Shown: one piece after another, positions 26,520 through 40,383 of the stretch
How the letters are laid out: every line of letters starts with the position of its first letter
Numbering within the stretch: the stretch's first letter is position 1
Translations under genes and position numbers: made by a program
From: Yinghuangia seranimata
Lineage (GTDB): Bacteria > Actinomycetota > Actinomycetes > Streptomycetales > Streptomycetaceae
Reading direction: 5' to 3'
DNA: 64,000 bases
NCBI RefSeq assembly: GCF_029953285.1
Contig: NZ_JASAOI010000010.1
Location: 124,001 to 188,000 of the forward strand
The notes under the pieces: generated by a model
Databases searched by the model: none
Told to the model about the DNA's origin: nothing
Seen by the model: only the letters and a program-made list of their open reading frames with translations

Positions 26520-27875
26520 ATGTCCCACATCAGTGCAGCGCCGCAGAGCGGGTCCGACACGCCCGGTGACATATCCGCCGGCGGCGCACCCGGTCTCGCG
26601 CCCGTCCCGGGATCGGAACCCCTGACCGAACAGCAGGCCGAGCTCCACGCCGCGGCCACCGGCTTCCACACCGGCCCGCCCGGGCGGGTCGGCGTCGAGA
26701 TCGAGTGGCTCGTGTGCGACGAGGCCGACCCCGCGTGGCCCGTCACCGGCGAACGCGTCAACGCCGCGCTCGGCACCGGCCCGCTGCCCGCCGGCGGCCG
26801 CGTCACCCTCGAACCCGGCGGCCAGCTGGAACTCAGCTCCGCCGCGCATCCCTCGCTCGCGCGATGTATCGAGGCGGCGCGCCAGGACGCCGCCCTCATG
26901 CACGACACCGCCGCCGAGGCGGGTCTGGTGCTGACCGGCGCCGGCGTCGACGCCTACCGCCTGCCGCGCCGCAGCCTCCAACTGCCCCGCTACGTCGCCA
27001 TGGAACGCTACTTCGACCGCAACGGGCACTGGGGCCGGGTCATGATGTGCAGCACCGCCTCCGTGCAGGTGTGCCTCGACCCCGGCGACGACACGGACGA
27101 CACCGCGGGCCTGCGGCACCGCTGGGCGCTCGCGCACCGCATCGGCCCGGTCCTGCTCGCGATGTTCGCGAACTCCCCGCACCACGGCGGCCGGTCGACC
27201 GGCTGGGCGTCCACCCGCCAGCTGGCCTGGTCGCGGCTCGACGCGTTCCGCACCCGCCCGCCCGCGCACGACGCCGGCACGGATCCCCGTGAGGCGTGGG
27301 CGCGTTACGTCATGGACGCGCCGGTCATGTGCGTGCGCCGCGACGAACCCGCCGAGTGGCTCGTCCCCGAGGGCATGACCTTCCGCGACTGGACGCGCGG
27401 CGCGCTCACCCCCGCGCCCACCGTCGCGGACTTCGACCTGCACGTGTCCACGCTGTTCCCGCCGGTGCGCGCGCACGGCACCCACATGGAGCTGCGCATG
27501 ATCGACGCGCAGCCCGACGGCACCTGGACCGTGCCGCTGGCCCTCGCCACCGCGCTGCTCGACGACCCCGCCGCGTCCGCCGCGGCCTGGGAGCACACGG
27601 AGCAGCTCGCCCGCTCGGTCGCCGCCGCGCCGTCGTACGCCTGGTGGCTGCGTGCCGCCCGGTTCGGCCTCAACGAACCGCTGCTGCGCACGACGGCCCG
27701 CGCGCTCACCGCCGCCGCCCTCGACGCGCTGCCGGGAATGGGCGTCCCCGCCGACGTGTTCGCAGATTCCGTGGAATTCGCCTACCGCTACACAGACCGG
27801 GGCCGATGCCCCGGAGACGACCTCCTGCCGGGGGCCGCGCACGAGGGGACCCGCCATGCCGCACCCGCCCGCTGA
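26520..27875 (+). CDS. egtA: Ergothioneine biosynthesis glutamate-cysteine ligase EgtA
   Basis: A 451-residue member of the GCS2/EgtA family, which makes gamma-glutamylcysteine, the sulfur donor for ergothioneine. Signatures are GRVGVEIEWLVCD (residues about 55-67, the Glu-x-Glu metal site), VTLEPGGQLELSS, ERYFDRNGHWGRVMMCSTASVQV and FANSPHHGGRSTGWASTR. The ATG at 26520 has AGGAGG seven bases upstream. It is first in an egtA-egtB-egtC-egtD operon and its end overlaps the egtB start by 20 bases. Actinomycetes also have mycothiol, so this ligase is dedicated to ergothioneine. Confidence 0.95.
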   Translation: MSHISAAPQSGSDTPGDISAGGAPGLAPVPGSEPLTEQQAELHAAATGFHTGPPGRVGVEIEWLVCDEADPAWPVTGERVNAALGTGPLPAGGRVTLEPGGQLELSSAAHPSLARCIEAARQDAALMHDTAAEAGLVLTGAGVDAYRLPRRSLQLPRYVAMERYFDRNGHWGRVMMCSTASVQVCLDPGDDTDDTAGLRHRWALAHRIGPVLLAMFANSPHHGGRSTGWASTRQLAWSRLDAFRTRPPAHDAGTDPREAWARYVMDAPVMCVRRDEPAEWLVPEGMTFRDWTRGALTPAPTVADFDLHVSTLFPPVRAHGTHMELRMIDAQPDGTWTVPLALATALLDDPAASAAAWEHTEQLARSVAAAPSYAWWLRAARFGLNEPLLRTTARALTAAALDALPGMGVPADVFADSVEFAYRYTDRGRCPGDDLLPGAAHEGTRHAAPAR

Positions 27876-29208
27876 CACCTCGTCGGACGACCTCCCGGAG
27901 TTCCTCAGGGCGTCCCGCGACGAACTGGCCAAGCGCGCCTACGAGGCCCTGGAACGCGCCCGGGCCCGCACGACGCTGCTCACCGACGCCGTCGACGACA
28001 CCGATCTGGTGCGCCAGCACTCGCCGTTGATGTCGCCGCTGGTGTGGGACCTCGCGCACATCGCCAGCCAGGAGGAGATCTGGCTGCTGCGCGGCGTGGG
28101 CGGCCACGAGCCGATGCGGCCGGAGATCGACGACCTGTACGACGCGTTCCGGCACCCGCGCGCGTCCCGCCCGCAACTGCCGCTGCTCAGCCCGGCCGAG
28201 GCGCGCGGCTACGCGCACGAGGTGCGCGGCCGCGTCCTCGACCTGCTCGACCGCGCACCGGGCGACGACCCGCTGACCCGCGACGCGTTCGCGTTCGGGA
28301 TGATCGCGCAACACGAGCAGCAGCACGACGAGACGATGCTGGCGACGCACCAGCTGCGCGCCGGCGCGCCGGTCATCGACGCGCCCGAGCCGCCCGGCGC
28401 CGTCGACCTGCCGCCCACCGAAGTCGTGATCCCCGCGGGCTCGTTCACGATGGGTACTTCGACGCACCCGTGGGCGCTGGACAACGAGCGGCCCGCGCAC
28501 GCCGTGCACGTCGCCGCGTTCGCCCTCGACACCACCCCGGTGACCTGCGGCGACTACCTGCGGTTCATGGACGACGGCGGCTACGACGACCCGCGGCTGT
28601 GGACCACCGAGGGCTGGGAGCACCGGGTCCGCGACGAACTGACCGCGCCCGGCTTCTGGGTGCGCGACGGACGCGAGTGGGCGCGCCGCCGCTTCGGCGT
28701 CCTGGAGCCCGTGCCCCTCGGCGAACCCGTCGTGCACGTTTCGTGGTTCGAGGCCGACGCCTACGCCCGCTGGGCCGGCCGACGGCTGCCCACCGAGGCC
28801 GAGTGGGAGAAGGCCGCCCGGCACGACCCGGCCACCGGCCGCTCGCGCACCTACCCGTGGGGCGACGAGCCGCCGACCGCGGACCACGCCAACCTCGGGC
28901 AGCGGCACCTGCGCCCGGCCGCCGCCGGCGCCTACCCGGCGGGCGAATCCGCCTACGGTGTACGGCAGATGCTCGGCGACGTGTGGGAGTGGACCTCGTC
29001 CGACTTCACCGGCTACCCGGGCTTCGTCGCGTGGCCGTACAAGGAGTACTCCGAGGTGTTCTTCGGCTCGGACTACAAGGTGCTGCGCGGTGGTTCGTTC
29101 GGCGCCGACGAGGTCGCGTGCCGCGGCACGTTCCGCAACTGGGACTACCCGCAGCGCCGCCAGATCTTCGCGGGCTTCCGCACCGCACGCGACGCGGGAC
29201 CGGTCTGA
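27856..29208 (+). CDS. egtB: Ergothioneine sulfoxide synthase EgtB
   Basis: A 450-residue non-heme iron enzyme joining gamma-glutamylcysteine and hercynine with O2. The N-terminal DinB-like domain supplies the iron ligands His68 (LVWDLAHIASQEE) and His153/His157 (AQHEQQHDET). The C-terminal FGE-sulfatase domain runs from VVIPAGSFTMGT to the family end FRNWDYPQRRQIFAGFRTARD. The ATG at 27856 lies inside the end of egtA and has GAGGGG seven bases upstream. The stop overlaps the egtC ATG by one base. Confidence 0.95.
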   Translation: MPHPPADTSSDDLPEFLRASRDELAKRAYEALERARARTTLLTDAVDDTDLVRQHSPLMSPLVWDLAHIASQEEIWLLRGVGGHEPMRPEIDDLYDAFRHPRASRPQLPLLSPAEARGYAHEVRGRVLDLLDRAPGDDPLTRDAFAFGMIAQHEQQHDETMLATHQLRAGAPVIDAPEPPGAVDLPPTEVVIPAGSFTMGTSTHPWALDNERPAHAVHVAAFALDTTPVTCGDYLRFMDDGGYDDPRLWTTEGWEHRVRDELTAPGFWVRDGREWARRRFGVLEPVPLGEPVVHVSWFEADAYARWAGRRLPTEAEWEKAARHDPATGRSRTYPWGDEPPTADHANLGQRHLRPAAAGAYPAGESAYGVRQMLGDVWEWTSSDFTGYPGFVAWPYKEYSEVFFGSDYKVLRGGSFGADEVACRGTFRNWDYPQRRQIFAGFRTARDAGPV

Positions 29209-29951
29209 TGTGCCGTCATCTGGCCTACCTGGGCGACCCGGCGAGCATCGCGAGCCTGGTCGTCGAACCCCCGTGCGGACTGTACGAGCAGTCGTGGCGG
29301 CCGCGTGAGCAGAAGTTCGGCACGGTCAACGCCGACGGCTTCGGGGTCGGCTGGTACGCCGACGGAGACCCGGCCCCGGCCCGCTACCGGCGCGCCGTGC
29401 CGATCTGGGCGGACCCGTCGTTCGCCGACGTCGCCCGCGTCACCCGCACCCGCGCGCTGCTCGCCGCCGTCCGCTCGGCGACCGCCGGCACCACGCAGGG
29501 CGAGGACGCCGCGGCGCCGTACCGCGAAGGACCGTGGCTGTTCAGCCACAACGGCCGACTCGACGCGTGGCCCGACGGCCTCGGCGCCCTCGCCGCCGCA
29601 CTGCCTCCCGCCGACCTGCTGCGCCTCGAGTCGCGCTGCGACTCGGCACTGCTGTGGGCGCTGATACGCCGTCTCCTCCTCGACGGCGAGCCCGCCGCCC
29701 GGGCGGTCGCCGACGTCGTCACGCACGCGGCGGCGCACACCGACGGCCGGTTCAACGTGCTGCTGACCGACGGACACACCATCACCGCGACCGCGTACGG
29801 CGACACGCTGTACGTGCGGGAGACCCCCGGCGGCGTCCGCGTCGCGTCCGAACCCGACGCGGCCGGCGACTGGACCCCGGTCCCGGACCGCACGCTCGTG
29901 ACGGCCACAAGGGAGGCCGTTCACCTGCACCCGTTGACGGACAGGAGCTGA
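29208..29951 (+). CDS. egtC: Gamma-glutamyl hercynylcysteine sulfoxide hydrolase EgtC
   Basis: A 247-residue class II glutamine-amidotransferase-fold hydrolase that removes glutamate from the EgtB product. It begins MCRHLAYLG, so Cys2 is the N-terminal nucleophile after Met removal. NADGFGVGWYADG and FSHNGRLDAW are the other active-site blocks. The ATG at 29208 shares one base with the egtB stop (TGATG), so translation is coupled. Length is normal for the family. Confidence 0.94.
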   Translation: MCRHLAYLGDPASIASLVVEPPCGLYEQSWRPREQKFGTVNADGFGVGWYADGDPAPARYRRAVPIWADPSFADVARVTRTRALLAAVRSATAGTTQGEDAAAPYREGPWLFSHNGRLDAWPDGLGALAAALPPADLLRLESRCDSALLWALIRRLLLDGEPAARAVADVVTHAAAHTDGRFNVLLTDGHTITATAYGDTLYVRETPGGVRVASEPDAAGDWTPVPDRTLVTATREAVHLHPLTDRS

Positions 29952-29957
29952 CTCCCC

Positions 29958-30938
29958 GTGACCCGACCGACCAGCCTCACCGTGCGCGGCCACCTTCCCG
30001 ACGGCTACCTGGCCGACGCGCTGCGCCGCGACGCCGCGCTCGGCCTCACCGCGCATCCCAAGTGGCTGCCGCCCAAGTGGTTCTACGACGCACGCGGCAG
30101 CCGGTTGTTCGAGGACATCACCCGATTGCCCGAGTACTACCCGACACGTGCCGAGCGCGAGATCCTCGAACGCCACGCGGTGGACATCGCCGCCACGCTG
30201 TCCGCGCACACGCTCGTCGAACTCGGCTCCGGCTCCTCGGAGAAGACCCGGCTGCTCCTCGACGCGCTGCGCGGGATCGGCTCGTTGGAGCGCTATGTAC
30301 CGGTCGACGTCAGCGAACCCGCGCTGGTCGAGGCCGGCGAGGCGCTGCTGCGCGACTACCCCGGCCTGGCGGTCGAGGCCGTCGTCTCCGACTTCGACGC
30401 CCACCTCGGCATCCCGGACGGCCCCGGCCCGACACTGGTCGCATTCCTCGGCGGCACGCTCGGCAACCTGACGCCCGACCAGCGCGCGGTGTTCCTCGCC
30501 TCGGTGCGCTCCCAACTCCGCGCCGGGGACGGCCTGGTGCTCGGCGCCGACCTGGTCAAGGACCCCGGGGTCCTGGTCCGCGCCTACGACGACGCGGCCG
30601 GCGTGACCGCCGACTTCAATCGCAACGTCCTGCGCGTCCTCAACCGCGAACTCGACGCCGACTTCAACGTCGACCGCTTCGACCACGTCGCGGTGTGGGA
30701 CAGCCAGAACGCGTGGATCGAGATGCGGCTGCGCTCGCACGGCGACCAGACGGTCAAGCTGCGGGACCTCGACCTGGTCGTCGAGTTCGCCGACGGCGAG
30801 GAGATGCGCACCGAGATCTCGGCGAAGTTCCGCGCCTCCGGCCTGGCCGCCGAAATCGAACGGGCCGGCTTCGCGGTCACCCGCTGGTGGACCGACAGCG
30901 AGAACCGCTTCGGCGTGGCCCTCGCCACCCCGGTGTAG
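29958..30938 (+). CDS. egtD: Histidine N-alpha-methyltransferase EgtD
   Basis: A 326-residue SAM-dependent enzyme that trimethylates histidine to hercynine, the first ergothioneine precursor. Visible motifs are PPKWFYDARGSRLFEDITRLPEYY (split over residues 36-60), TLVELGSGSSEKTRLLLDAL for SAM binding, VPVDVSEPAL, and FLGGTLGNLTPDQR with the histidine-binding Asn. The GTG at 29958 follows AGGAG (29942-29946) and is six bases after the egtC stop. It ends the operon. No egtE-type C-S lyase is present nearby, as is usual where egtE is unlinked. Confidence 0.95.
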   Translation: MTRPTSLTVRGHLPDGYLADALRRDAALGLTAHPKWLPPKWFYDARGSRLFEDITRLPEYYPTRAEREILERHAVDIAATLSAHTLVELGSGSSEKTRLLLDALRGIGSLERYVPVDVSEPALVEAGEALLRDYPGLAVEAVVSDFDAHLGIPDGPGPTLVAFLGGTLGNLTPDQRAVFLASVRSQLRAGDGLVLGADLVKDPGVLVRAYDDAAGVTADFNRNVLRVLNRELDADFNVDRFDHVAVWDSQNAWIEMRLRSHGDQTVKLRDLDLVVEFADGEEMRTEISAKFRASGLAAEIERAGFAVTRWWTDSENRFGVALATPV

Positions 30939-31017: not shown

Positions 31018-31983
31018 TCAGCGCAGCACGTCGAGCGTCTGGACGCCTCCGGGGTCGGCGTCCGTCGAGCAGGGCACGAGGACGAGTTCGTCGACGCCTG
31101 CGGCCGCGTACCGCGCGGTCATGGCCTCGACCGCGTCGCGGTCGGGCCCGGACAGGGCGACGACGTCGACGAGTTCGCGCGGGACGGCGGCGAGGAGTTC
31201 GCGGGGGTGCGGGCGGGTACGGGCGTGGGCGACCAGGTCGGCGTATCCGGCGCGGGCGAACATCTCGCCGTAGCCGGGGGCCGCGAGGTAGGAGACCAGC
31301 CCTCGCCGGAGTTGTTCGGCGCCCGCCTCGTGCCCGGGTCCCACGGCGGCGCCCACCCAGGCGGCGACGGTGGGACGGGGGCGCCCCGCCTGGGCCGCGG
31401 CCTTCTCGACGTCGGCGACGAGGTCGGCGGCGGTCTCGGGTGAGACGAGGTTGAGGACGAGCCGGTCGGCGTACCGGCCCGCGGTGCGCAGTGCGGCCGG
31501 CCCGAAGGCGGCGACGGTCAACGGCCCCGGGACGGCCGGGAGGCGCAGCCGGTAGCCGCGGCAGCGCAGCACGTCGCCGTCGAGGTCGGCGCGGTCCCCG
31601 GACAGCAGGGCCCGCACGGCGACGGCGGACTCCTCCAGCGCCCGGCCGGCGCGGGCGCGTGAACGTCCGTGCCAGTCCTCGACGACGACGGTGGAGGACG
31701 TGCCGAGCGCGACGGAGACCGGGCGGCCGGTCAGGTCGGCGACCGAGGCGGCGCCCATGGCGATCGTCGCGGGGTCCCGGACGGTGACCGCGAGCGGGCC
31801 GACCGTCAGCGGGATCCGCGCCGTGCGGGCGGCGACGGCGGTGGCGAGGGCGAAGGCGTCGTAGGTGGCCATCTCGCCGATCCACAGCTCCGCGTAGCCG
31901 AGCAGGTCGGCGGCCTCGGCCGTCACCAGCACCTCGGCGGGCGGCCGGTCCTGCCACAGGCCGAGGGACACGGAGCGTTTCAC
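31018..31983 (-). CDS. LLM-class F420-dependent oxidoreductase
   Basis: A 321-residue luciferase-like protein beginning MKRSVSLGLWQDRPPAEVL. The barrel pattern is visible in LLGYAELWIGEMATYDAFALATAVA, IPLTVGPLAVTVRDPATIAMGAASV and RPVSVALGTSS. It resembles F420-dependent oxidoreductases of the TIGR03841 type. The substrate is unknown. It lies 150 bases downstream of the thiolase gene on the same strand, so it could be the last gene of the carotenoid-oxygenase operon, though the gap contains GC-rich dyads that might stop transcription. Confidence 0.82.
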   Translation of the reverse strand: MKRSVSLGLWQDRPPAEVLVTAEAADLLGYAELWIGEMATYDAFALATAVAARTARIPLTVGPLAVTVRDPATIAMGAASVADLTGRPVSVALGTSSTVVVEDWHGRSRARAGRALEESAVAVRALLSGDRADLDGDVLRCRGYRLRLPAVPGPLTVAAFGPAALRTAGRYADRLVLNLVSPETAADLVADVEKAAAQAGRPRPTVAAWVGAAVGPGHEAGAEQLRRGLVSYLAAPGYGEMFARAGYADLVAHARTRPHPRELLAAVPRELVDVVALSGPDRDAVEAMTARYAAAGVDELVLVPCSTDADPGGVQTLDVLR

Positions 31984-32134: not shown

Positions 32135-33361
32135 TCATCCGGCCGCCTCGAGGACGACGGCGGTGCCGAGTCCGGCGGCGCCGCTGACCGCCGCGACGCC
32201 GAAGGTGCCGCCTGAGCGCCGTAGTTCGTCCGCGCACGCGCCGACGAGGATCGCGCCGGTCGCGCCGAAGGCGTGCCCCATGGCGATGGTTCCGCCGTTG
32301 ACGTTGAAGCGGTCGTCGCCGAAACCGAGGTCGCGTTGGATCTTCAGGCACAGGGCCGCGAAGGCCTCGGCGTACTCGACGACGTCGACGTCTCCGCTCG
32401 CGAGTCCGGCGCGTTCCAGCGCGCAACCGACGGCGGTCTGCCCGGCGACGAGCATCCGCACCGGGTCGCAGCCGGCGCTCGCGGAGGCCGCGATGCGGGC
32501 GACCGGGGTGAGGCCGAGGCGTTCGGCCTGCCGGGCGGTGCCGATCAGGGTGAGGCACGCGCCGTCGGCGAGGGACGGGGAGGTGCCGCGGGTGTGCAGG
32601 TGCCGCACCTCCTTCAGGTGGGGCAGGTGGCGCAGCGCGAGTTCGTCCTGCCCTGACGCGCCGAGCTCCGCGAAGGCCGCTTCCAGCCCGGAGAGTTGCT
32701 CGAGCGTGGTGCCGGGGCGCACGTGCTCGTCGGCGGCGAGCAGCACCGTCCCGTCGGCGGCCGTCACCGGCACGACGCCGTCGCTGAAGCGGCCTTCCGC
32801 CCAGGCCCGAGCGGCGCGTTCCTGGGTGCGGACGCCGTACTCGTCCAACTCGCCGCGTTCGCGCCCCTCTTCGGTGGCCACGACGTCGGCGGCGATGCCC
32901 ATGTGCACGCTGCCGATCCGGTCGACGACCGCCGGGTCGGTCCACAGCGGCCCCTTGTCGGCGAACATCGGTACGCGCGAGCTGGATTCGACGCCGCCCG
33001 CGACCACCAGCTCCGCCTGTCCCGAGCGGACCAGGGCCGCGCCGAGCGCCACCGCGTCGATGCCGCTCGCGCAGAACCTGTTGACGGTCTGCCCGGGCAC
33101 GGCCTCGGGCCAGCCAGCCATCAGGGCGGCGGTGCGTGCGAGGTTCCCGCCCTGGTCGCCCACCTGGCCCGCGCAGCCCAGCACGACGTCGTCCACCCGC
33201 GCCGGGTCGAGGCCGGTGCGCGCGGCCAGCGCGTCGAGCAGCCCGACGACGAGGTCGAGCGGCGGTACGGACGCCAGCGCCCCACGCGCCGAGGCCTTTC
33301 CGCGCGGTGTACGCACATGCGCCAACAGGTAGGCCTGGTCCGCGCTTTGAGCTTCCGTCAT
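32135..33361 (-). CDS. Atypical thiolase (acetyl-CoA acyltransferase family)
   Basis: A 408-residue thiolase-family protein. The acyl-accepting Cys97 is present (NRFCASGIDAV), and His363 is present in AMGHAFGATGA. The usual NEAFA block reads AEAFA. The C-terminal motif that normally carries the second catalytic Cys reads VSGAAGLG, placing Ser393 there. The enzyme may therefore use another base or be impaired in Claisen chemistry. The ATG at 33361 overlaps the preceding gene stop by four bases (ATGA), so it is translated with the SCP2-type thiolase. Confidence 0.82.
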   Translation of the reverse strand: MTEAQSADQAYLLAHVRTPRGKASARGALASVPPLDLVVGLLDALAARTGLDPARVDDVVLGCAGQVGDQGGNLARTAALMAGWPEAVPGQTVNRFCASGIDAVALGAALVRSGQAELVVAGGVESSSRVPMFADKGPLWTDPAVVDRIGSVHMGIAADVVATEEGRERGELDEYGVRTQERAARAWAEGRFSDGVVPVTAADGTVLLAADEHVRPGTTLEQLSGLEAAFAELGASGQDELALRHLPHLKEVRHLHTRGTSPSLADGACLTLIGTARQAERLGLTPVARIAASASAGCDPVRMLVAGQTAVGCALERAGLASGDVDVVEYAEAFAALCLKIQRDLGFGDDRFNVNGGTIAMGHAFGATGAILVGACADELRRSGGTFGVAAVSGAAGLGTAVVLEAAG

Positions 33362-34593
33362 GCGTCCTCTCCGCGTCCGATAACGGTGGCGACGGTCGTG
33401 GTGAGCGATCCGCCGACGTTCAGCGTCAGCGCGGTGCGCGCGCCCTCGACCTGCAGGGGCCCGGCGGTGCCCGCGACCTGCCGGGCGGCGTCGAGCGCCA
33501 TGCGCACGCCCGTGGCGCCGACCGGGTGGCCGAGTCCGAGCAGGCCGCCGCCGGGGTTGACCGGCAGCGTGCCGTCGGCCGCGACGACGCCGTCCTCGAC
33601 GAGCCTGCCGCCTTCGCCCGGGCCGACCAGGCCCAGGTGTTCGAGGGCGACGAGCGCGGTGATGGTGAAGCAGTCGTGCAGTTCGGCGACGTCGATCGCG
33701 CCGGGCCCGGCGATGCCGGCGCGCCGGTAGGCGTCGGCGACGGTTCCGGCCAGGTGCGGGAACATCACGCCGCCGGGGTCGCGGCGGGCGAGCTTGTCGG
33801 CGAGCGGCAGGACGTCGGTGCGGTGGCCGAAGCCGCGCAGCGCGGGCAGCGTGTCCAGGCTGCGGCCGCGGGCGCGCGCCCAGGCCTCCGCGTAGCGGGG
33901 CGAGGCGAGGAGCAGGGCGGCCGCGCCGTCGGTGATGCGCCCGCAGTCCGTCTTGCGCAGCCGGCCCTCGACGACGGGGTTCGCGGTGTCGTCGGCGGTG
34001 AACGCCGAGGGCTCGAAACGCCAGTCGCGGGCCTGCGCGAGCGGGTTGCGGGCCGCGTTGGCGAACGCGGAGCGGGCGATCTCGCCGAGCAGGTCCGCGT
34101 CCAGGCCGAAGCGTTCGTCGTAGGCCTGGGCGATCTCGGCGAACAGCGCGGGCCACGGGTAGGTCGCGCCGATCGCCTCGTGGCCGGCCCAGGTGGCGCT
34201 GCCCAGGTGCGCGGCGGCCTGGTCGGCGGGCACGTTGCGCATCAGTTCGACGCCGACCACCAGCGCCAGGTCGTAGCGCCCGGCGGCCAGGTCGGCGTCG
34301 GCGGCAAGCAGCGCGGTGCCGCCGGACGCGCACGCCGCCTCGTGCCGGGTGCTGGGCAGGCCGGCGAGCCCGGGCACGGCCAGTGCCGCGAGCCCGCCCA
34401 ACTGGGCCTGTCCGGCGAAGAGTTCCCCGGCCAGGTTGCCGATGTGCACGACGTCGACGTCGGCCACGTCGACGGCGGCGTCGGCCAGCGCCTCTTCGAC
34501 GGCCTCGCGCAGCATGTCGCGCAGCCCGAGGCCTTCCTTGGCCCAGTGACGCGCGAAGTCGGTCTGCGCGCCGCCCAGGATGAACGCGGTCAT
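33358..34593 (-). CDS. SCP2/lipid-transfer-type thiolase-like protein
   Basis: A 411-residue protein of the SCP-x/Ltp thiolase group. Landmarks are the nucleophile Cys in HEAACASGGTALL, the ELHDCFTITALVALEHLGL block with the group-specific HDCF, GLGHPVGATGVRM and a terminal NVGGSLTTTVAT without Cys, as normal for this group. Such enzymes perform retro-aldol or thiolytic steps in steroid and branched side-chain breakdown, often with a DUF35 partner, which is absent here. The ATG at 34593 has AGGAGG six bases upstream and overlaps the synthetase stop by four bases. Confidence 0.87.
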   Translation of the reverse strand: MTAFILGGAQTDFARHWAKEGLGLRDMLREAVEEALADAAVDVADVDVVHIGNLAGELFAGQAQLGGLAALAVPGLAGLPSTRHEAACASGGTALLAADADLAAGRYDLALVVGVELMRNVPADQAAAHLGSATWAGHEAIGATYPWPALFAEIAQAYDERFGLDADLLGEIARSAFANAARNPLAQARDWRFEPSAFTADDTANPVVEGRLRKTDCGRITDGAAALLLASPRYAEAWARARGRSLDTLPALRGFGHRTDVLPLADKLARRDPGGVMFPHLAGTVADAYRRAGIAGPGAIDVAELHDCFTITALVALEHLGLVGPGEGGRLVEDGVVAADGTLPVNPGGGLLGLGHPVGATGVRMALDAARQVAGTAGPLQVEGARTALTLNVGGSLTTTVATVIGRGEDA

Positions 34594-36344
34594 GGTGCCT
34601 CCTCCGGCGGGACTGCGGGTGCGGAGTCGTCCTCGGCCGGTGCCGCGAAGCGGGCGCGCAGCTCGGCCTTGGCCACCTTGCCGACCGGGTTGCGCGGCAA
34701 CGCGTCGACGGTTTCCAGGCGTTCGGGCAGCTTGTAGGTCGCGATCCCGATCTCGCGCAGATAGCCGACGAGGCCGGCGAGGTCGGGCGGGTCCGCGCCC
34801 GGTGCCGGGACGACGACGGCACAGGCGCGTTCGCCGAGCACCGGGTCGGGGACGCCGACGACGGCGCACTCGGCGACGCCGGGGTGTCCGGCGAGGTGGC
34901 CTTCGAGTTCGGCCGCGGAGATGTTCATGCCGCCGCGCACCACGATGTCCTTGGCCCGGTCGACATAGCGCAGGTAGCGCGGGTCCCCCGCGGCGTCGGC
35001 GGCGTACGCGAACAGGTCGCCGGTGCGGAACCAGCCGTCGTCGTCGAACGCTTCGGCGAACGCGTCCGGTCGGCCCGGCACCGGCAGGTAGCCGGAGAAC
35101 ACGCCGGGCCCCTTGATGCGCAGTTCCCCCGGCGTGTCCGGCGCGGTGACCTCGGCTCCGGTGGCGAGGTCGACCAGGCGTGTGCGCATGCCGTGCGAGG
35201 CCCGGTTGCGCCACGTGTGCGTCGGGGATCCGAAGCGTGGGAAGTAGTGCGCACGGTCGCGGTGTCCGGGCACCGTCACGGGCCCGGCGACCAGGCTGGC
35301 GCCCTCGTTGGAGCCGAAGAAGTTGAGGACCTCGATGCCGAACCGGTCGGCCCAGCCGACGGTCATCGCCTCGGTGAGCGGTGCCGATCCGGAGCCGACG
35401 ACGCGCAGCGTGCCGAGGGCGCCCTCGGGCAGGGCAGGGTGCGCGAGCACCGTCGACAGCAGCGCGGGTGGCACGACGGTGTACGTCACGCGCTCCTTGG
35501 CGATCTGCTCGAAGAACACCCCGGCGTCGAACGGGTGGTGCTGGACGAGCGTCGCGCCGGTCATCAGCCACGGCACGAACATGCCGCCGATGCCTGCCAT
35601 GTTGACCATGGGGAACGGATTGAGCAGCACGTCGTCGCCGGTCAGCCCGGCCTCGTCGACGCTGCCGAGCGCCATCGGCGACCAGTCGTCGGGACAGCGC
35701 GGCACGCCTTTGGGGGTCGCCTCGGTGCCGGACGTCCAGCAGACCGTGACGCACTCCCCCGGGTCTGCGGTGAACCGGCTGATGTGCCGGGCGAGTTCGT
35801 CCGGACCGACGGCGTCCCCGCGGTCGAGCGACGCGACGCCGTCGGGCAGGTCGCGGGCGGGGCCGAACGCCAAGACCGTGACCTCGTCTCCGTAGACCTC
35901 CCGCGCGGCGGCGGCCGCAGCGCGCTTGCCGACACGTGTCGCCGTGACGAACGCCGAAAGCCCGGCGACCGCACCGAGCGTGCCCAGTTCGTGTTCGCGG
36001 TGCTGCACCGGGAACGGCGCGACCGCGCCGCCAAGCCGGTGCACCGCCAGGTACACGGCCGCCAGTTCGGCGCTGTTGGGCAGCTGGACGCCGACGACGG
36101 TGCCGCGCCCGACCCCGTGCGCGAGCAGACGGCACGCCAGGTCGTCGACGTACGCGTCCAGTTCGGCCCACGTCAGGCGCAGCGCCTCCGCGTCGAGGTG
36201 GGCGGCCTTGTCCGGCGGGTCCACGAGGGCCACGGCGTCCGGGCGTTCGGCCGTCCGGTCGCGGAACAGGCGGTCCCACGTCGGGACGCCCCACCATCCG
36301 GCCGCGCGGAACTCGGCGACCCGTACGGGCGGATGCAGCCTCAC
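34590..36344 (-). CDS. Acyl-CoA synthetase (AMP-forming)
   Basis: A 584-residue ANL-superfamily ligase. Core motifs are VCWTSGTEATPKGVPR (P-loop-like A3), NFFGSNEGA (A5), GWFRTGDLF (A7), YVDRAKDIVVRGGMNISAAELE (A8) and NPVGKVAKAEL with the catalytic Lys (A10), so it should be active. It would activate a carboxylic acid, possibly derived from oxygenase cleavage products. The GTG at 36344 overlaps the oxygenase stop (GTGA), giving translational coupling. The substrate cannot be deduced. Confidence 0.9.
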   Translation of the reverse strand: MRLHPPVRVAEFRAAGWWGVPTWDRLFRDRTAERPDAVALVDPPDKAAHLDAEALRLTWAELDAYVDDLACRLLAHGVGRGTVVGVQLPNSAELAAVYLAVHRLGGAVAPFPVQHREHELGTLGAVAGLSAFVTATRVGKRAAAAAAREVYGDEVTVLAFGPARDLPDGVASLDRGDAVGPDELARHISRFTADPGECVTVCWTSGTEATPKGVPRCPDDWSPMALGSVDEAGLTGDDVLLNPFPMVNMAGIGGMFVPWLMTGATLVQHHPFDAGVFFEQIAKERVTYTVVPPALLSTVLAHPALPEGALGTLRVVGSGSAPLTEAMTVGWADRFGIEVLNFFGSNEGASLVAGPVTVPGHRDRAHYFPRFGSPTHTWRNRASHGMRTRLVDLATGAEVTAPDTPGELRIKGPGVFSGYLPVPGRPDAFAEAFDDDGWFRTGDLFAYAADAAGDPRYLRYVDRAKDIVVRGGMNISAAELEGHLAGHPGVAECAVVGVPDPVLGERACAVVVPAPGADPPDLAGLVGYLREIGIATYKLPERLETVDALPRNPVGKVAKAELRARFAAPAEDDSAPAVPPEEAP

Positions 36345-37804
36345 CGGGCGGCCCCGTCCAGCTGGTCGGCGCGCACCCAGCACGAGTGGAAGCCGGTCGG
36401 CACGCGCTGCGGCAGCAGGATCCGGCACACCGGTCCGGCGGCCAGGTCGGCGGCGTCCAGGACCACGACTTCGGAGCGGCCCTCGCGTTCGTCGGTCACG
36501 AAGGACACCAGGTAGCCGTCGTCCTCCTCGGTCCCGCCGTCACGCGGCGCGAACGGCGCCTCGGAGCCCCACCGGCCCGGGCCGAACCTGTGGTCCTGGC
36601 GCTCGCCGGTGTGCAGGTCGTACCGGACCAGGCCGTCGAACAGCAGCGTGTCCTCGGGGGCGATGTGCACGGCGTACCCGAACCGGTTGCGCCGCCCGAC
36701 CACGCGCGAGTCGACCATCGGGAACTCGGTGTTGTCGTCGTCGCGCGGCCCCTCGGTGGTGCGGCCGGTGCGCAGGTCGAAGCGGTAGCGCCACAGTTGG
36801 GCGTCGAGCCGCAGGTAGGCGAGCATGCGCGCGAGCGGGTGGCGGATGCGCGGCTGGTGCTGCGGGTCCTTGACCCGGCACACGTCCATGACGATCTCGT
36901 CGCCCTCTTCCCACGCGTTGACGACGTGGTAGATGTAGCCGGGCGCGGCCTCGAACCAGCGCACCGACGCGCTGTCCCCGCGGCGCGGCAGCACGGCGAA
37001 GCGCGACGGGAGTTCGCGTTCGAAGTGGATCCGGTAGCGGCCCTGGAGGCGCGCCTCCTGGTCCTGGATCAGCGGCAGGTCCATGAGGACCACGTGGTTC
37101 TCGGTGATCGCCATGTCGTGCGGCAGCCGCGGCCCGGGCAGGCCGATGTCCGCGGTGTGCGCGACCTTGCCGTCCGGGCCGACGACGCCGTAGCGCAGGT
37201 AAGGCGGTTCGGGCCCGTAGTCGAACCAGAACAGCTCGCCGGTGGCCTCGTCGACCTTCGGGTGTGCCATGAAGTCGCCGGTGAGCGTGCCGAGGAAGGT
37301 CTCGGCGCCGAGCGTCTCCAGCGACAGCGGGTCCATCGTCGTCGGCGACCCGCACAGGTACCAGGTCGACAGGATCCGGCCGTTGAAGAAGATGACGTCG
37401 GTGTTCGCGGAGTCCTTGATGCCGAGCCCGTGGCCGTTGCCGAACGGGTTGCCCTTCGGGTCCTCCATGACACCGGTCCACAGCGCCTGCCCGGCGGCGT
37501 CCTCGGCGGCGAACGCGGCCGTGCGCACCCAGCGGTTGGCGTAGCGCGCGCGGCCGTTCTCGAAGTGCACGCCGTGCACCATGCCGTCGCCGTCGAACCA
37601 GTGGTAGCGGCCCTGCGCGGGGAACCTCCGGTTCGGCCCGTTGCGCAGGTAGACGCCGTTGAGATCCCTCGGGATCTCACCGATCACTTCCAAATCGTCA
37701 GCTGAGATCTCGGTATCCACCGGGGCGTACACACCCAGCAGATAGGGGTTCTCCTCGCCCTCGAGGGGTCCCGAAGTGCGCGTATCGTTCCGGGTTTCCG
37801 TCAT
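36341..37804 (-). CDS. Carotenoid-cleavage oxygenase family protein
   Basis: A 487-residue RPE65/CCD/lignostilbene dioxygenase-family protein. The four iron-binding histidines are visible at His181 (FMAHPKVD), His229 (LPHDMAIT), His293 (IYHVVNAWEEG) and His473 (GFHSCWV). NGVYLRNGPN and HWFDGDGMVHGVHF are N-terminal family blocks. Such enzymes split a conjugated double bond of a carotenoid, apocarotenoid or stilbene. The ATG at 37804 has GGAGG five bases upstream. It leads a four-gene coupled operon and is divergent from the tandem HxlR regulator. Confidence 0.92.
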   Translation of the reverse strand: MTETRNDTRTSGPLEGEENPYLLGVYAPVDTEISADDLEVIGEIPRDLNGVYLRNGPNRRFPAQGRYHWFDGDGMVHGVHFENGRARYANRWVRTAAFAAEDAAGQALWTGVMEDPKGNPFGNGHGLGIKDSANTDVIFFNGRILSTWYLCGSPTTMDPLSLETLGAETFLGTLTGDFMAHPKVDEATGELFWFDYGPEPPYLRYGVVGPDGKVAHTADIGLPGPRLPHDMAITENHVVLMDLPLIQDQEARLQGRYRIHFERELPSRFAVLPRRGDSASVRWFEAAPGYIYHVVNAWEEGDEIVMDVCRVKDPQHQPRIRHPLARMLAYLRLDAQLWRYRFDLRTGRTTEGPRDDDNTEFPMVDSRVVGRRNRFGYAVHIAPEDTLLFDGLVRYDLHTGERQDHRFGPGRWGSEAPFAPRDGGTEEDDGYLVSFVTDEREGRSEVVVLDAADLAAGPVCRILLPQRVPTGFHSCWVRADQLDGAAR

Positions 37805-37904
37805 TTCCGCCTCCGCCGAGCGGTCGCACTCGTTCGGTGTTCCGGGTGGTACGACGTTCCTGAAGCGGTCGCGACGGTACTCCTGGCTGCGCAATACTTC
37901 CAGA

Positions 37905-38828
37905 GTGAAAGCGACAGCCGCGAACCGGCACACCTCACTCGGGCACGGCCTGCTGGTGCTCGGCGACCTGTGGAACCTGCTGCTCGTCCGCGGTCTGCTC
38001 ACCGCCGGACCCGGCCGATTCCTCGACCTCAAGCAGCGCCTCGGGATCTCCGATCCCGTGCTGGTGCGCCGGCTGCGCGACCTCGCCGACGACGGCCTGG
38101 TCCGCGCCGGGGAGCGCGCCGAGTACACCGCGACCGAGGCGGCACTGGCGGCATGGCCCGCGTTCGTCGCCCTGCACGCGTGGGACCGGCGCTGGGCGCC
38201 CGGCTCACCGCTGCGGCTGCGCACCCCGCTGGTGCACGACGCGTGCGGGCACCGCACCGACCCGGTCTTCGGGTGCGGCGCGTGCGGCGCGATCGGTCTG
38301 AGCGCGCGCGACACGACCGCCGAGGTCGACCCCGACGTGCCGTTCGCCGCGACCAACCCGCGTCGCCGCTACCACCGTTCGGCGAGCGCGGGACCGGCGG
38401 CGGGCGACGCCGACCCGGCGGGCCCGGTCGCGTCGGCCGCGGTCCTCGCCGACCGCACGTCGACGGCGCTGCTGGCCGCCGCGTTCCTCGGGCACCGCCG
38501 CTTCGGCGACTTCCAGACCGCGCTGCACGACACCGCCCCGCACACCCTCACCAGCCGCCTCGCGCTGCTGACCGAGCAGGGCATCCTCGCCAAGGAGCCG
38601 CTGCGCGCGGGCGGCCGCCGGCACGGCTACCGGCTCACCCCGAAGGGCCACGACTTCTTCCCGACGTTCGCGTGCCTGATCGCCTGGTCCGGGGCGTGGT
38701 TCACCAGCGACGGCCGCGCAGGCGTCCGCATCACCCACCGCGCGTGCGGCGCCGAGCTGGTCCCGCGGTGGACGTGCAACGCGTGCAACGCCCCGCTCAC
38801 CCGCGCGGCGCTCAGCGGGTCGGCCTGA
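37905..38828 (+). CDS. Tandem HxlR winged-helix regulator with two zinc-ribbon-like modules
   Basis: A 307-residue regulator in which the same module appears twice. Module 1 has a winged helix (LGDLWNLLLVRGLLTAGPGRF, DLKQRLGISDPVLVRRL; residues about 15-75) and then H111-x2-C114 with C124-x2-C127. Module 2 has a winged helix (LLAAAFLGHRRFGDFQTAL, TLTSRLALL; about 182-265) and H278-x2-C281 with C291-x2-C294. The GTG at 37905 is favoured since the longer frame crosses the divergent promoter; there is no strong ribosome-binding site. The gene is 100 bases from the divergent oxygenase operon, its likely target. Confidence 0.85.
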   Translation: MKATAANRHTSLGHGLLVLGDLWNLLLVRGLLTAGPGRFLDLKQRLGISDPVLVRRLRDLADDGLVRAGERAEYTATEAALAAWPAFVALHAWDRRWAPGSPLRLRTPLVHDACGHRTDPVFGCGACGAIGLSARDTTAEVDPDVPFAATNPRRRYHRSASAGPAAGDADPAGPVASAAVLADRTSTALLAAAFLGHRRFGDFQTALHDTAPHTLTSRLALLTEQGILAKEPLRAGGRRHGYRLTPKGHDFFPTFACLIAWSGAWFTSDGRAGVRITHRACGAELVPRWTCNACNAPLTRAALSGSA

Positions 38829-38885: not shown

Positions 38886-40172
38886 TCAGGCGCCGGGCGC
38901 CTTCAGGATCTCCGCGCCGACCCACTTGCGCAGCGGCTCCGGGACGACGACCGAGCCGTCCGCCTGCTGGTGCTGCTCGAGGATCGCGGGCAGCAGCCGG
39001 CTGGTGGCCAGGCCGGAGGCGTTGAGCGTGTGGACGAACGCCGACTTGCCGTCCGCCGGGCGGTACCGGATGTTGCCGCGCCGGGCCTGGTAGTCGCGGG
39101 AGTTGGAGACCGAAGAGACCTCGATGTACGAGTCGAGGCTGGGCAGCCACACCTCGATGTCGTACGTGCGCGCCATCGCCGGGCTGGTGTCGCCCGCCGC
39201 CAGCTTGCTCACCCGGTAGTGCAGGCCGAGGGCCGCGACCAGCGCCTCCGCCTTGCCGATCAGCTCCTCGTGCGCGGCCGCGGAGTCCTCCGGCCGGGTG
39301 AACTGGAACATCTCGACCTTGTTGAACTGGTGGCCGCGCAGCGTGCCGCGGTCGGACGCGCGGTAGCTGCCGATCTCGCGGCGGTAGCACGGCGAGTACG
39401 CGAAGTACTTGCGCGGCAGCTCGGCCTCGGGCAGCGTCTCGTCGCGGTGCAGGTTGACCAGCGCGGTCTCGGAGGTCGGCAGCAGGAACTTCGCCGGCCG
39501 GCCGTCCTCGCCCTGCTCGATGACGAAGACCTCGTCGGCGAACTTCGGGAACTGACCCGCGGTGTAGCCCGCCTCGTAGGTCAGGATGTGCGGCGGCAGG
39601 ACGAATTCGTAGCCGTCCTTGCGGTGCTCCTCGACAAAGAAGTTGAGCAGCGACCATTCGAGCATCGCGCCGTTTCCGCTGTACACCCACAAACCGGAGC
39701 CGCCGAGCTTGGCGCCGCGCTTGTAATCGATCAGGCCGAGCCCGCTCGCCAAATCGACATGGTCCTTGGCGGTGAATTCGAATTCCGGCTTGGATCCGCT
39801 TTCGCGGACCACCGCGTTGTTCTCCTTGCCGCCCGCGACGACATCGTCGTCCGGCAGGTTGGGCAGCGCGTCGAGGAACCGCTGACGGGCCTCCTCGACC
39901 TCGCCGAGCCGCGCCTCGAGCTCGGCGAGCCTGGTCCCGACGGCCTTCGCCTGCTCGCGCAGCGCCTCGACGTCGCCGCCTTCGCGCGCGGCCTTGGCGA
40001 CCTCGCCCGACAGCTTCTTCCGCTCGGCGCGCAGCTGCTCCGACTCGGTCCGCGACCGGCGGAACTCCTCGTCCATCGCCAGGAATTCCGACAGATCGAC
40101 GTGGACCCCGCGCTTCGCCAAAGCCAGGCGGACGCGCTCGGAATCCTCGCGAATAGCGGCGGCATCTAGCAT
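38886..40172 (-). CDS. serS: Seryl-tRNA synthetase
   Basis: A 428-residue class II synthetase charging tRNA-Ser. The N-terminal long helical hairpin spans residues about 30-100 (RTESEQLRAERKKLSGEVAKAARE and following). Motif 2 lies in the segment beginning SPCYRREIGSY, and motif 3 is ASGLATSRLLPAILEQHQ. The ATG at 40172 begins MLDAAAIREDSERV, the usual synthetase start; an in-frame upstream start adds ten residues. Codons in the first half (39600-40170) are less GC-biased than in neighbouring genes. Whether it is the only serS of the genome or a second copy cannot be seen here. The 210 bases upstream are relatively AT-rich and probably hold the promoter. Confidence 0.9.
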   Translation of the reverse strand: MLDAAAIREDSERVRLALAKRGVHVDLSEFLAMDEEFRRSRTESEQLRAERKKLSGEVAKAAREGGDVEALREQAKAVGTRLAELEARLGEVEEARQRFLDALPNLPDDDVVAGGKENNAVVRESGSKPEFEFTAKDHVDLASGLGLIDYKRGAKLGGSGLWVYSGNGAMLEWSLLNFFVEEHRKDGYEFVLPPHILTYEAGYTAGQFPKFADEVFVIEQGEDGRPAKFLLPTSETALVNLHRDETLPEAELPRKYFAYSPCYRREIGSYRASDRGTLRGHQFNKVEMFQFTRPEDSAAAHEELIGKAEALVAALGLHYRVSKLAAGDTSPAMARTYDIEVWLPSLDSYIEVSSVSNSRDYQARRGNIRYRPADGKSAFVHTLNASGLATSRLLPAILEQHQQADGSVVVPEPLRKWVGAEILKAPGA

Positions 40173-40383
40173 GGTACTGTCGCGCTCCGTTTCATCGGTC
40201 ACTCGCCTCGGATGGGCTGCCCCACATTCTGTGGTCGCCGGGCCAGGGTATTCCGAGGTTTTTCGGGCCTCGACCGTATTTCTTGAGCGAGCCGACAGAA
40301 CGGAATCATGCTACCATCACCGGCCCCCGCGGAATTGCGGTCGCGGACCGGGTGACCGGTCAGGTGCCGGAGCGGGTGGCCGG

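Follow-up and report, generated by a model that had tools for sequence, protein, structure and literature searches.

Carotenoid cleavage dioxygenases (CCDs), among them plant CCD1, VP14/NCED, ACO and MtCCO (Rv0654), are enzymes of family PF03055 with a seven-bladed propeller fold and four iron-binding histidines, and three second-sphere carboxylates have been described as the rule in characterised enzymes (PMC8191317, PMC12051055). The lignostilbene dioxygenases (LSDs), which include LsdA, LSD4, NOV1 and PbLSD, share the fold and the histidines, act in lignin dimer pathways (PMC12997858) and grip the 4-hydroxyl group with Tyr-101 and Lys-134 (PMC8191317). Here we describe a carotenoid-cleavage-oxygenase-family protein (CCO) that is encoded together with coenzyme A (CoA) enzymes in Yinghuangia seranimata, within a 64,000-nucleotide stretch of contig NZ_JASAOI010000010.1 (positions 124,001 to 188,000; ‘the window’, the numbering of which is used below). 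The gene set is concluded to be a real, conserved and hitherto undescribed module built from known enzyme families, and it is best read as catabolic. A search of the open-licence literature, which took in the module, its individual genes and related catabolic routes, found no description of the set, in agreement with an earlier note on this DNA, made from its letters alone, the author of which knew of no pathway with exactly these members.

The consecutively tagged genes Rv0913c and Rv0914c of Mycobacterium tuberculosis are annotated as a CCO (PMC5133782) and as a lipid carrier/keto acyl-CoA thiolase (PMC8669151), respectively, whilst in M. massiliense a CCO is found elsewhere in the genome, outside the lipid island MmGI-1.

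Gene layout and linkage of the module

The minus strand between 32135 and 37804 encodes CCO, an acyl-CoA synthetase (ACS) and two thiolase-fold proteins (THL1 and THL2), in that order, flanked by a predicted oxidoreductase and a divergent regulator:

36341 to 37804, minus strand: CCO, carotenoid-cleavage-oxygenase-family protein of 487 aa, with a four-histidine iron site and one second-shell carboxylate missing
34590 to 36344, minus strand: ACS, AMP-forming acyl-CoA synthetase of 584 aa (PF00501 and PF13193)
33358 to 34593, minus strand: THL1, SCP2-type thiolase of 411 aa (PRK06289 equivalog NF004936, 563 bits against a cut-off of 375)
32135 to 33361, minus strand: THL2, FadA-like thiolase fold of 408 aa (PF00108/PF02803), with the nucleophile Cys kept, the Asn of NEAF replaced by Ala and the Cys of CxG replaced by Ser
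31018 to 31983, minus strand: LLM, LLM-class oxidoreductase of predicted F420 dependence (TIGR03841, 376 bits against a curated cut-off of 213.65), last gene of the module
37905 to 38828, plus strand: tandem HxlR regulator, divergent from CCO, with PF01638 in two stretches and two winged helix-turn-helix modules

Each junction of the four-gene run is an overlap of exactly 4 bases (GTGA, ATGA and ATGA, from CCO to THL2), as the earlier note had read it, and the overlapping arrangement is confirmed.

A first search covered 120 genomes related to the host. Four close relatives of CCO also have the regulator and either ACS or THL1 beside them, and 27 other CCO loci (25 from the relatives and two host paralogues) are without these partners in a flank of about 1.5 kb. 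A scan of named-species genomes gave 80 loci of the CCO clade, with CCO identities of 47-87%. Partners were counted when the alignment covered half of the query or more, at identities of at least 45% for THL1, 40% for THL2, 40% for ACS, 45% for LLM, 30% for HxlR, 45% for aldehyde dehydrogenase (ALDH) and 40% for an NMO-like FMN enzyme (NMO). At least one partner is present in 57 of the 80 clade loci and at least three in 38, compared with none beside the 20 control CCO loci, inspected for about 9 kb on each side at the same thresholds. That ordinary lipid-metabolism genes should be adjacent by accident, with no dedicated pathway, is hardly credible; actinomycetes do have many acyl-CoA synthetases and thiolases, but the difference between clade and control loci, and the return of the same set in varied orders in several phyla, contradict this explanation, and chance linkage was rejected.

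Linkage was also observed in an even sample of 396 genomes of Actinomycetota, where one partner or more accompanies 13 of 20 clade loci. The clade CCO was found in 21 of these genomes, THL1 in 15 and both in 14; the two genes lie within about 2.3 kb of each other in 13 of the latter, the 14th being at a contig end. The named and sampled sets overlap slightly, as two sampled genomes appear to match named Nitriliruptoraceae. As seven of the sampled clade CCOs lack a nearby THL1, the clade is broader than the module.

The partners recur beside the clade CCO in shuffled order in Actinomycetota, Chloroflexota, Bacillota, Myxococcota and Pseudomonadota. The order of the window (HxlR divergent from CCO-ACS-THL1-THL2-LLM) is also that of Yinghuangia soli and Amycolatopsis xylanica, whilst Nocardia inohanensis and its relatives have HxlR-CCO-LLM-THL2-ACS-THL1, Streptosporangiaceae have ACS and HxlR divergent from CCO-LLM, and Nonomuraea has THL1-ACS divergent from CCO-THL2-LLM. 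Chloroflexota carry CCO-ACS-THL1-THL2 and Myxococcota CCO-THL1-THL2, and a partial set is found in Neobacillus, Maricaulis and gammaproteobacteria. Many bacteria from soil and from the sea carry this CCO clade in an operon with CoA enzymes. The earlier note had held that the overlapping genes act together, had proposed a search for neighbourhood conservation and had named unlinked genes in relatives as the finding that would speak against it; that search has now been run, and it revealed conserved linkage instead. At one locus, in Prescottella defluvii (L088), the CCO, ACS and THL2 matches come in several pieces, which suggests frameshifts or sequencing errors.

Iron site and substrate pocket of the oxygenase

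CCO matches PF03055 (RPE65) with 474 bits over residues 26-477 (model positions 1-468 of 469), which places it in the superfamily, and its AlphaFold2 model (pLDDT 90.5, pTM 0.91) is predicted to form the beta-propeller, with CCD1, LSD and VP14 matched by Foldseek at TM scores of about 0.85. The clade alignment bears out the earlier reading that all four iron-binding histidines are kept: H181, H229 and H293 are present in 79 of 79 members, and H473 in 78 of 78, alongside one gap in a truncated row. E360 and E415 are likewise invariant (79/79), as is the iron-occluding Thr135, so that the likeness to the CCDs extends to this Thr and to two of the three second-shell Glu.

The third second-shell acid, which completes the set in characterised CCDs, is missing from CCO. 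In the clade its position is occupied mostly by L, M, R or Q, and by E in only two of 79 members. Control sequences carry it in a motif LALxE (Glu, with Asp in a few), and the clade has W-Y/W-x-x-G at this site (WYxxG in CCO), one residue longer. Directly beside Thr135, Asp136 is present in 78 of 79 clade members and in none of 27 controls. It is hypothesized that the carboxylate has been relocated, with Asp136 standing in for the lost Glu. This iron-site change is not described for characterised enzymes in the literature examined. The clade CCOs also make up a single group (SH-aLRT 99) in a tree that places the 27 control paralogues, together with plant CCD1, VP14 and PbLSD, outside it; the PbLSD branch is long, and all controls were drawn from relatives of the host. 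The operon with CoA enzymes is a further difference from the CCDs.

These replacements could mean that the clade performs something other than standard alkene cleavage, the thiolases then handling a product that does not derive from an aldehyde. The loss of the canonical Glu and the near-fixation of Asp136, set against the three-carboxylate rule, speak for such chemistry. The four His, the two other Glu and the Thr are, however, invariant as in working enzymes, and the ALDH of PaaN type found near CCO fits aldehyde products; we regard altered chemistry as quite unlikely.

No substrate-naming NCBIfam model was passed by CCO or ACS. For CCO, the 8'-apo-carotenoid 13,14-cleaving dioxygenase equivalog of MtCCO type (NF052295) gave 316 bits against a cut-off of 675, and the two LSD equivalogs gave 258 of 800 and 220 of 650 bits. 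The LSD pocket residues Phe-59, Tyr-101 and Lys-134 were compared with CCO (in PDB 5v2d the chain numbering is offset by 20, Lys135 of the paper being residue 155 of the chain, with W148 as its counterpart in CCO), and only the Phe is kept, as F70. The Tyr position is M113, which is variable in the clade (M in most), and the Lys position is W148 (W in 72 members, F in six and Y in one). A phenolic stilbene is therefore an unlikely substrate; the LSD pocket is not conserved, and the stilbene that the earlier note had listed among possible substrates is disfavoured. It could still be argued that CCO is an LSD in the catabolism of lignostilbenes, stilbenoids or other 4-hydroxyaryl alkenes, with the synthetase and thiolases processing the aromatic product, given that LSD structures are among the best Foldseek matches of the model, that the solved structures closest to ACS are those of salicylate/feruloyl ligases and that LSDs serve lignin dimer pathways. 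The altered Tyr and Lys positions, the distance from the equivalog cut-offs and the place of PbLSD outside the clade, albeit on its long branch, make this improbable.

CoA enzymes, accessory genes and the proposed pathway

The adenylation motifs of ACS, all of which the earlier note had reported as kept, can be read directly from the translation (TSGTEATPKG, FGSNEG, RTGD, KDIVVRGGMNIS and NPVGKVAK), and together with the AMP-binding and AMP-binding_C domains they identify an ANL acyl-CoA synthetase. No NCBIfam specificity cut-off was reached, the best models being PRK06187 and cyclohexanecarboxylate-CoA ligase, and the nearest solved structure is a salicylate-AMP ligase. THL1 (Thiolase_N/Thiolase_C_1 in Pfam) is an SCP2-type thiolase, in which HDCF, GHP and the nucleophile Cys are invariant across 36 sequences. 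These residues are shared with the archaeal acetoacetyl-CoA thiolase, SCP2-thiolases, BbsB and PhlC; unlike in those systems, a DUF35 partner gene was not noticed beside THL1.

THL2 (Thiolase_N/Thiolase_C) is related to PRK08242, below its cut-off, and its nearest solved structures are FadA of M. tuberculosis and relatives; to FadA of the mycobacterial trifunctional enzyme (Rv0859) it scores 352 bits. Of the residues expected of a degradative FadA it keeps the nucleophile Cys and GHxxG. In the window, however, and at seven more loci of Actinomycetota and Chloroflexota (L034, L041, L044, L058, L059, L065 and L066), AEAF stands where NEAF is expected and SGAAG where CxG is. THL2-like neighbours that are more distant vary, and the Cys is retained in some of them. 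Retention of the nucleophile with loss of the other two residues is unusual for a thiolase. The earlier note's two thiolase-family enzymes thus hold as to fold; two working thiolases are not supported, since THL2 lacks the canonical Asn and Cys. Because its nucleophile is retained, it is plausible that THL2 is a modified acyl-transfer or partner enzyme and not a second standard thiolase.

A PaaN-type ALDH lies beside the clade CCO in 10-11 loci, which fits a sequence from aldehyde to acid to CoA ester; the host encodes one elsewhere in its genome (776 bits, cut-off 579). Modules of other species contain, besides this ALDH, the NMO-like FMN enzyme, a hotdog thioesterase, a lipocalin-like protein, and a branched-chain-type ABC transporter, a TonB receptor or an MFS protein. 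By their predicted functions these genes point to uptake and aldehyde oxidation, without naming the compound. In six modules of Nocardia, Rhodococcus and Gordonia (L045-L048, L052 and L055) there are extra thiolases and a second acyl-CoA ligase, with a PaaN-type ALDH in most, and in five of them the hotdog thioesterase lies between ACS and CCO. The VAA pathway of Sphingobium SYK-6 (VceA/VceB) similarly treats a beta-keto aryl acid via a CoA ester and a thioesterase step (PMC11837543), but it includes no CCO, and the analogy is only one of logic. In Nitriliruptoraceae (L035, L037, L038 and L044) a Lipocalin_5 protein directly follows CCO, and branched-chain-type ABC transporter genes are found upstream on three of the four contigs.

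An endogenous carotenoid is disfavoured as the substrate. No CrtI scored over its curated cut-off in the host genome (98% complete), from which it follows that the substrate is probably of outside origin. Two adjoining squalene/phytoene synthase genes are present (G000:C39:82143-83756), which are probably HpnC/HpnD, for hopanoids.

What we infer as to catabolic direction, order of steps and class of substrate is as follows. The substrate would induce expression via the tandem HxlR regulator, and CCO would cut one C=C bond with O2 to give carbonyl products. The aldehyde product would be oxidized to the acid by the PaaN-type ALDH (outside the module in the host, inside it in other species), ACS would form the CoA thioester of this acid, and THL1 would split a beta-keto thioester with CoA, with THL2 as a modified partner or acyl-transfer enzyme. 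The F420-LLM enzyme (in other species, the NMO-like FMN enzyme) may make the substrate or an intermediate ready by a redox reaction. As to the substrate, a polyene of terpenoid type, such as an apocarotenoid, is preferred to a stilbene. We give about an even chance to the module being a transferable unit for the catabolism of a hydrophobic, unsaturated compound of outside origin. The more specific proposal of a widespread undescribed pathway, which joins alkene cleavage, CoA activation and SCP2-type thiolysis and employs a CCO with a rebuilt second shell (Glu lost, Asp136 gained) and a thiolase-fold enzyme without its acid/base Cys, is put forward tentatively, at somewhat less than even odds. 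Of the earlier note's scheme of alkene cleavage, CoA activation and thiolytic shortening, the first steps accord with the PaaN-type ALDH, and shortening by two thiolases is half supported.

Several observations weigh against the catabolic reading. No partner was found at the thresholds used in 23 of the 80 clade loci, some of which are on short contigs, and mainly the distant clade members may have other partners. The changed second shell could mean altered or weak oxygenase activity, and two catalytic residues are absent from THL2. Lastly, beta-oxidation enzymes were not identified in the module, nor was an enoyl-CoA hydratase, a hydroxyacyl-CoA dehydrogenase or an acyl-CoA dehydrogenase recognized in the recurrent neighbours examined, so that thiolysis would need a substrate that is already beta-keto, or enzymes encoded elsewhere. 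The genes might alternatively form a small biosynthetic cluster, in which CCO would trim a beta-keto or branched product assembled by the synthetase and the thiolases; thiolase-fold enzymes are able to run in the condensing direction, and PhlC, an SCP2-like relative, acts in diacetylphloroglucinol synthesis. This is nevertheless unlikely, as uptake systems and ALDH recur, neither a carrier protein nor dedicated export was seen, and the set comprises few genes, the order of which changes between phyla. For the catabolic module, the identity of the substrate would reveal which natural compound is eaten, and would put to the test whether such an enzyme can do without the third second-shell carboxylate.

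Mycobacterial pair, regulation and flanking genes

A reduced module, THL1-CCO(-HxlR), is found in most genomes of one genus group of the host's class (g24; L139, L140, L142-L145, L148 and L150). Unlike in the full module, no ACS, THL2 or LLM lies beside this pair. The group is possibly Mycobacterium, with the pair corresponding to Rv0914c-Rv0913c, to which it looks similar by locus tags and annotations. The two-gene core seems to be present in M. tuberculosis, without an assigned function, and the undescribed-pathway reading would, if true, give one to this orphan CCO-thiolase pair.

The earlier suggestion of a duplicated-module regulator agrees with the two HxlR stretches found by Pfam, and tandem HxlR relatives are near CCO in 38 of the 80 clade loci. 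An HxxC-x9-CxxC motif comes after each of the two HxlR halves, and both copies are present in 24 of 35 homologues; they are possibly a metal or redox site. The regulator more likely starts at the GTG at 37905, which is separated from the start of CCO by about 100 bases, than at 37776. Sigma-70 promoter and terminator scans gave no match, and one weak candidate was noted:

37894 to 37905, minus strand: CTCT[AG]GAAGTAT, upstream of CCO, candidate promoter/operator element (weak)

The same element precedes CCO in Y. soli (L034) and in G037 (L006). The LLM gene (31983-31018, Bac_luciferase in Pfam) starts about 150 bases past THL2 and scores above the cut-off of the TIGR03841 subfamily, for which F420 use is predicted. 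The earlier note had thought that it may belong; as LLM genes adjoin the clade CCO in 23 of 80 loci, all of them in actinomycetes among the matches listed, this predicted F420-type oxidoreductase is part of the module.

The block is bordered on the regulator side by serS (38886-40202, minus strand) and, past LLM, by a convergent EgtD-like methyltransferase gene (29958-30938, plus strand), which EgtB- and EgtA-like genes adjoin. The module is thus next to an ergothioneine biosynthesis cluster (26520-30938, plus strand), with EgtA-like (GCS2), EgtB-like (FGE-sulfatase and DinB_2) and EgtD-like (Methyltransf_33) members.

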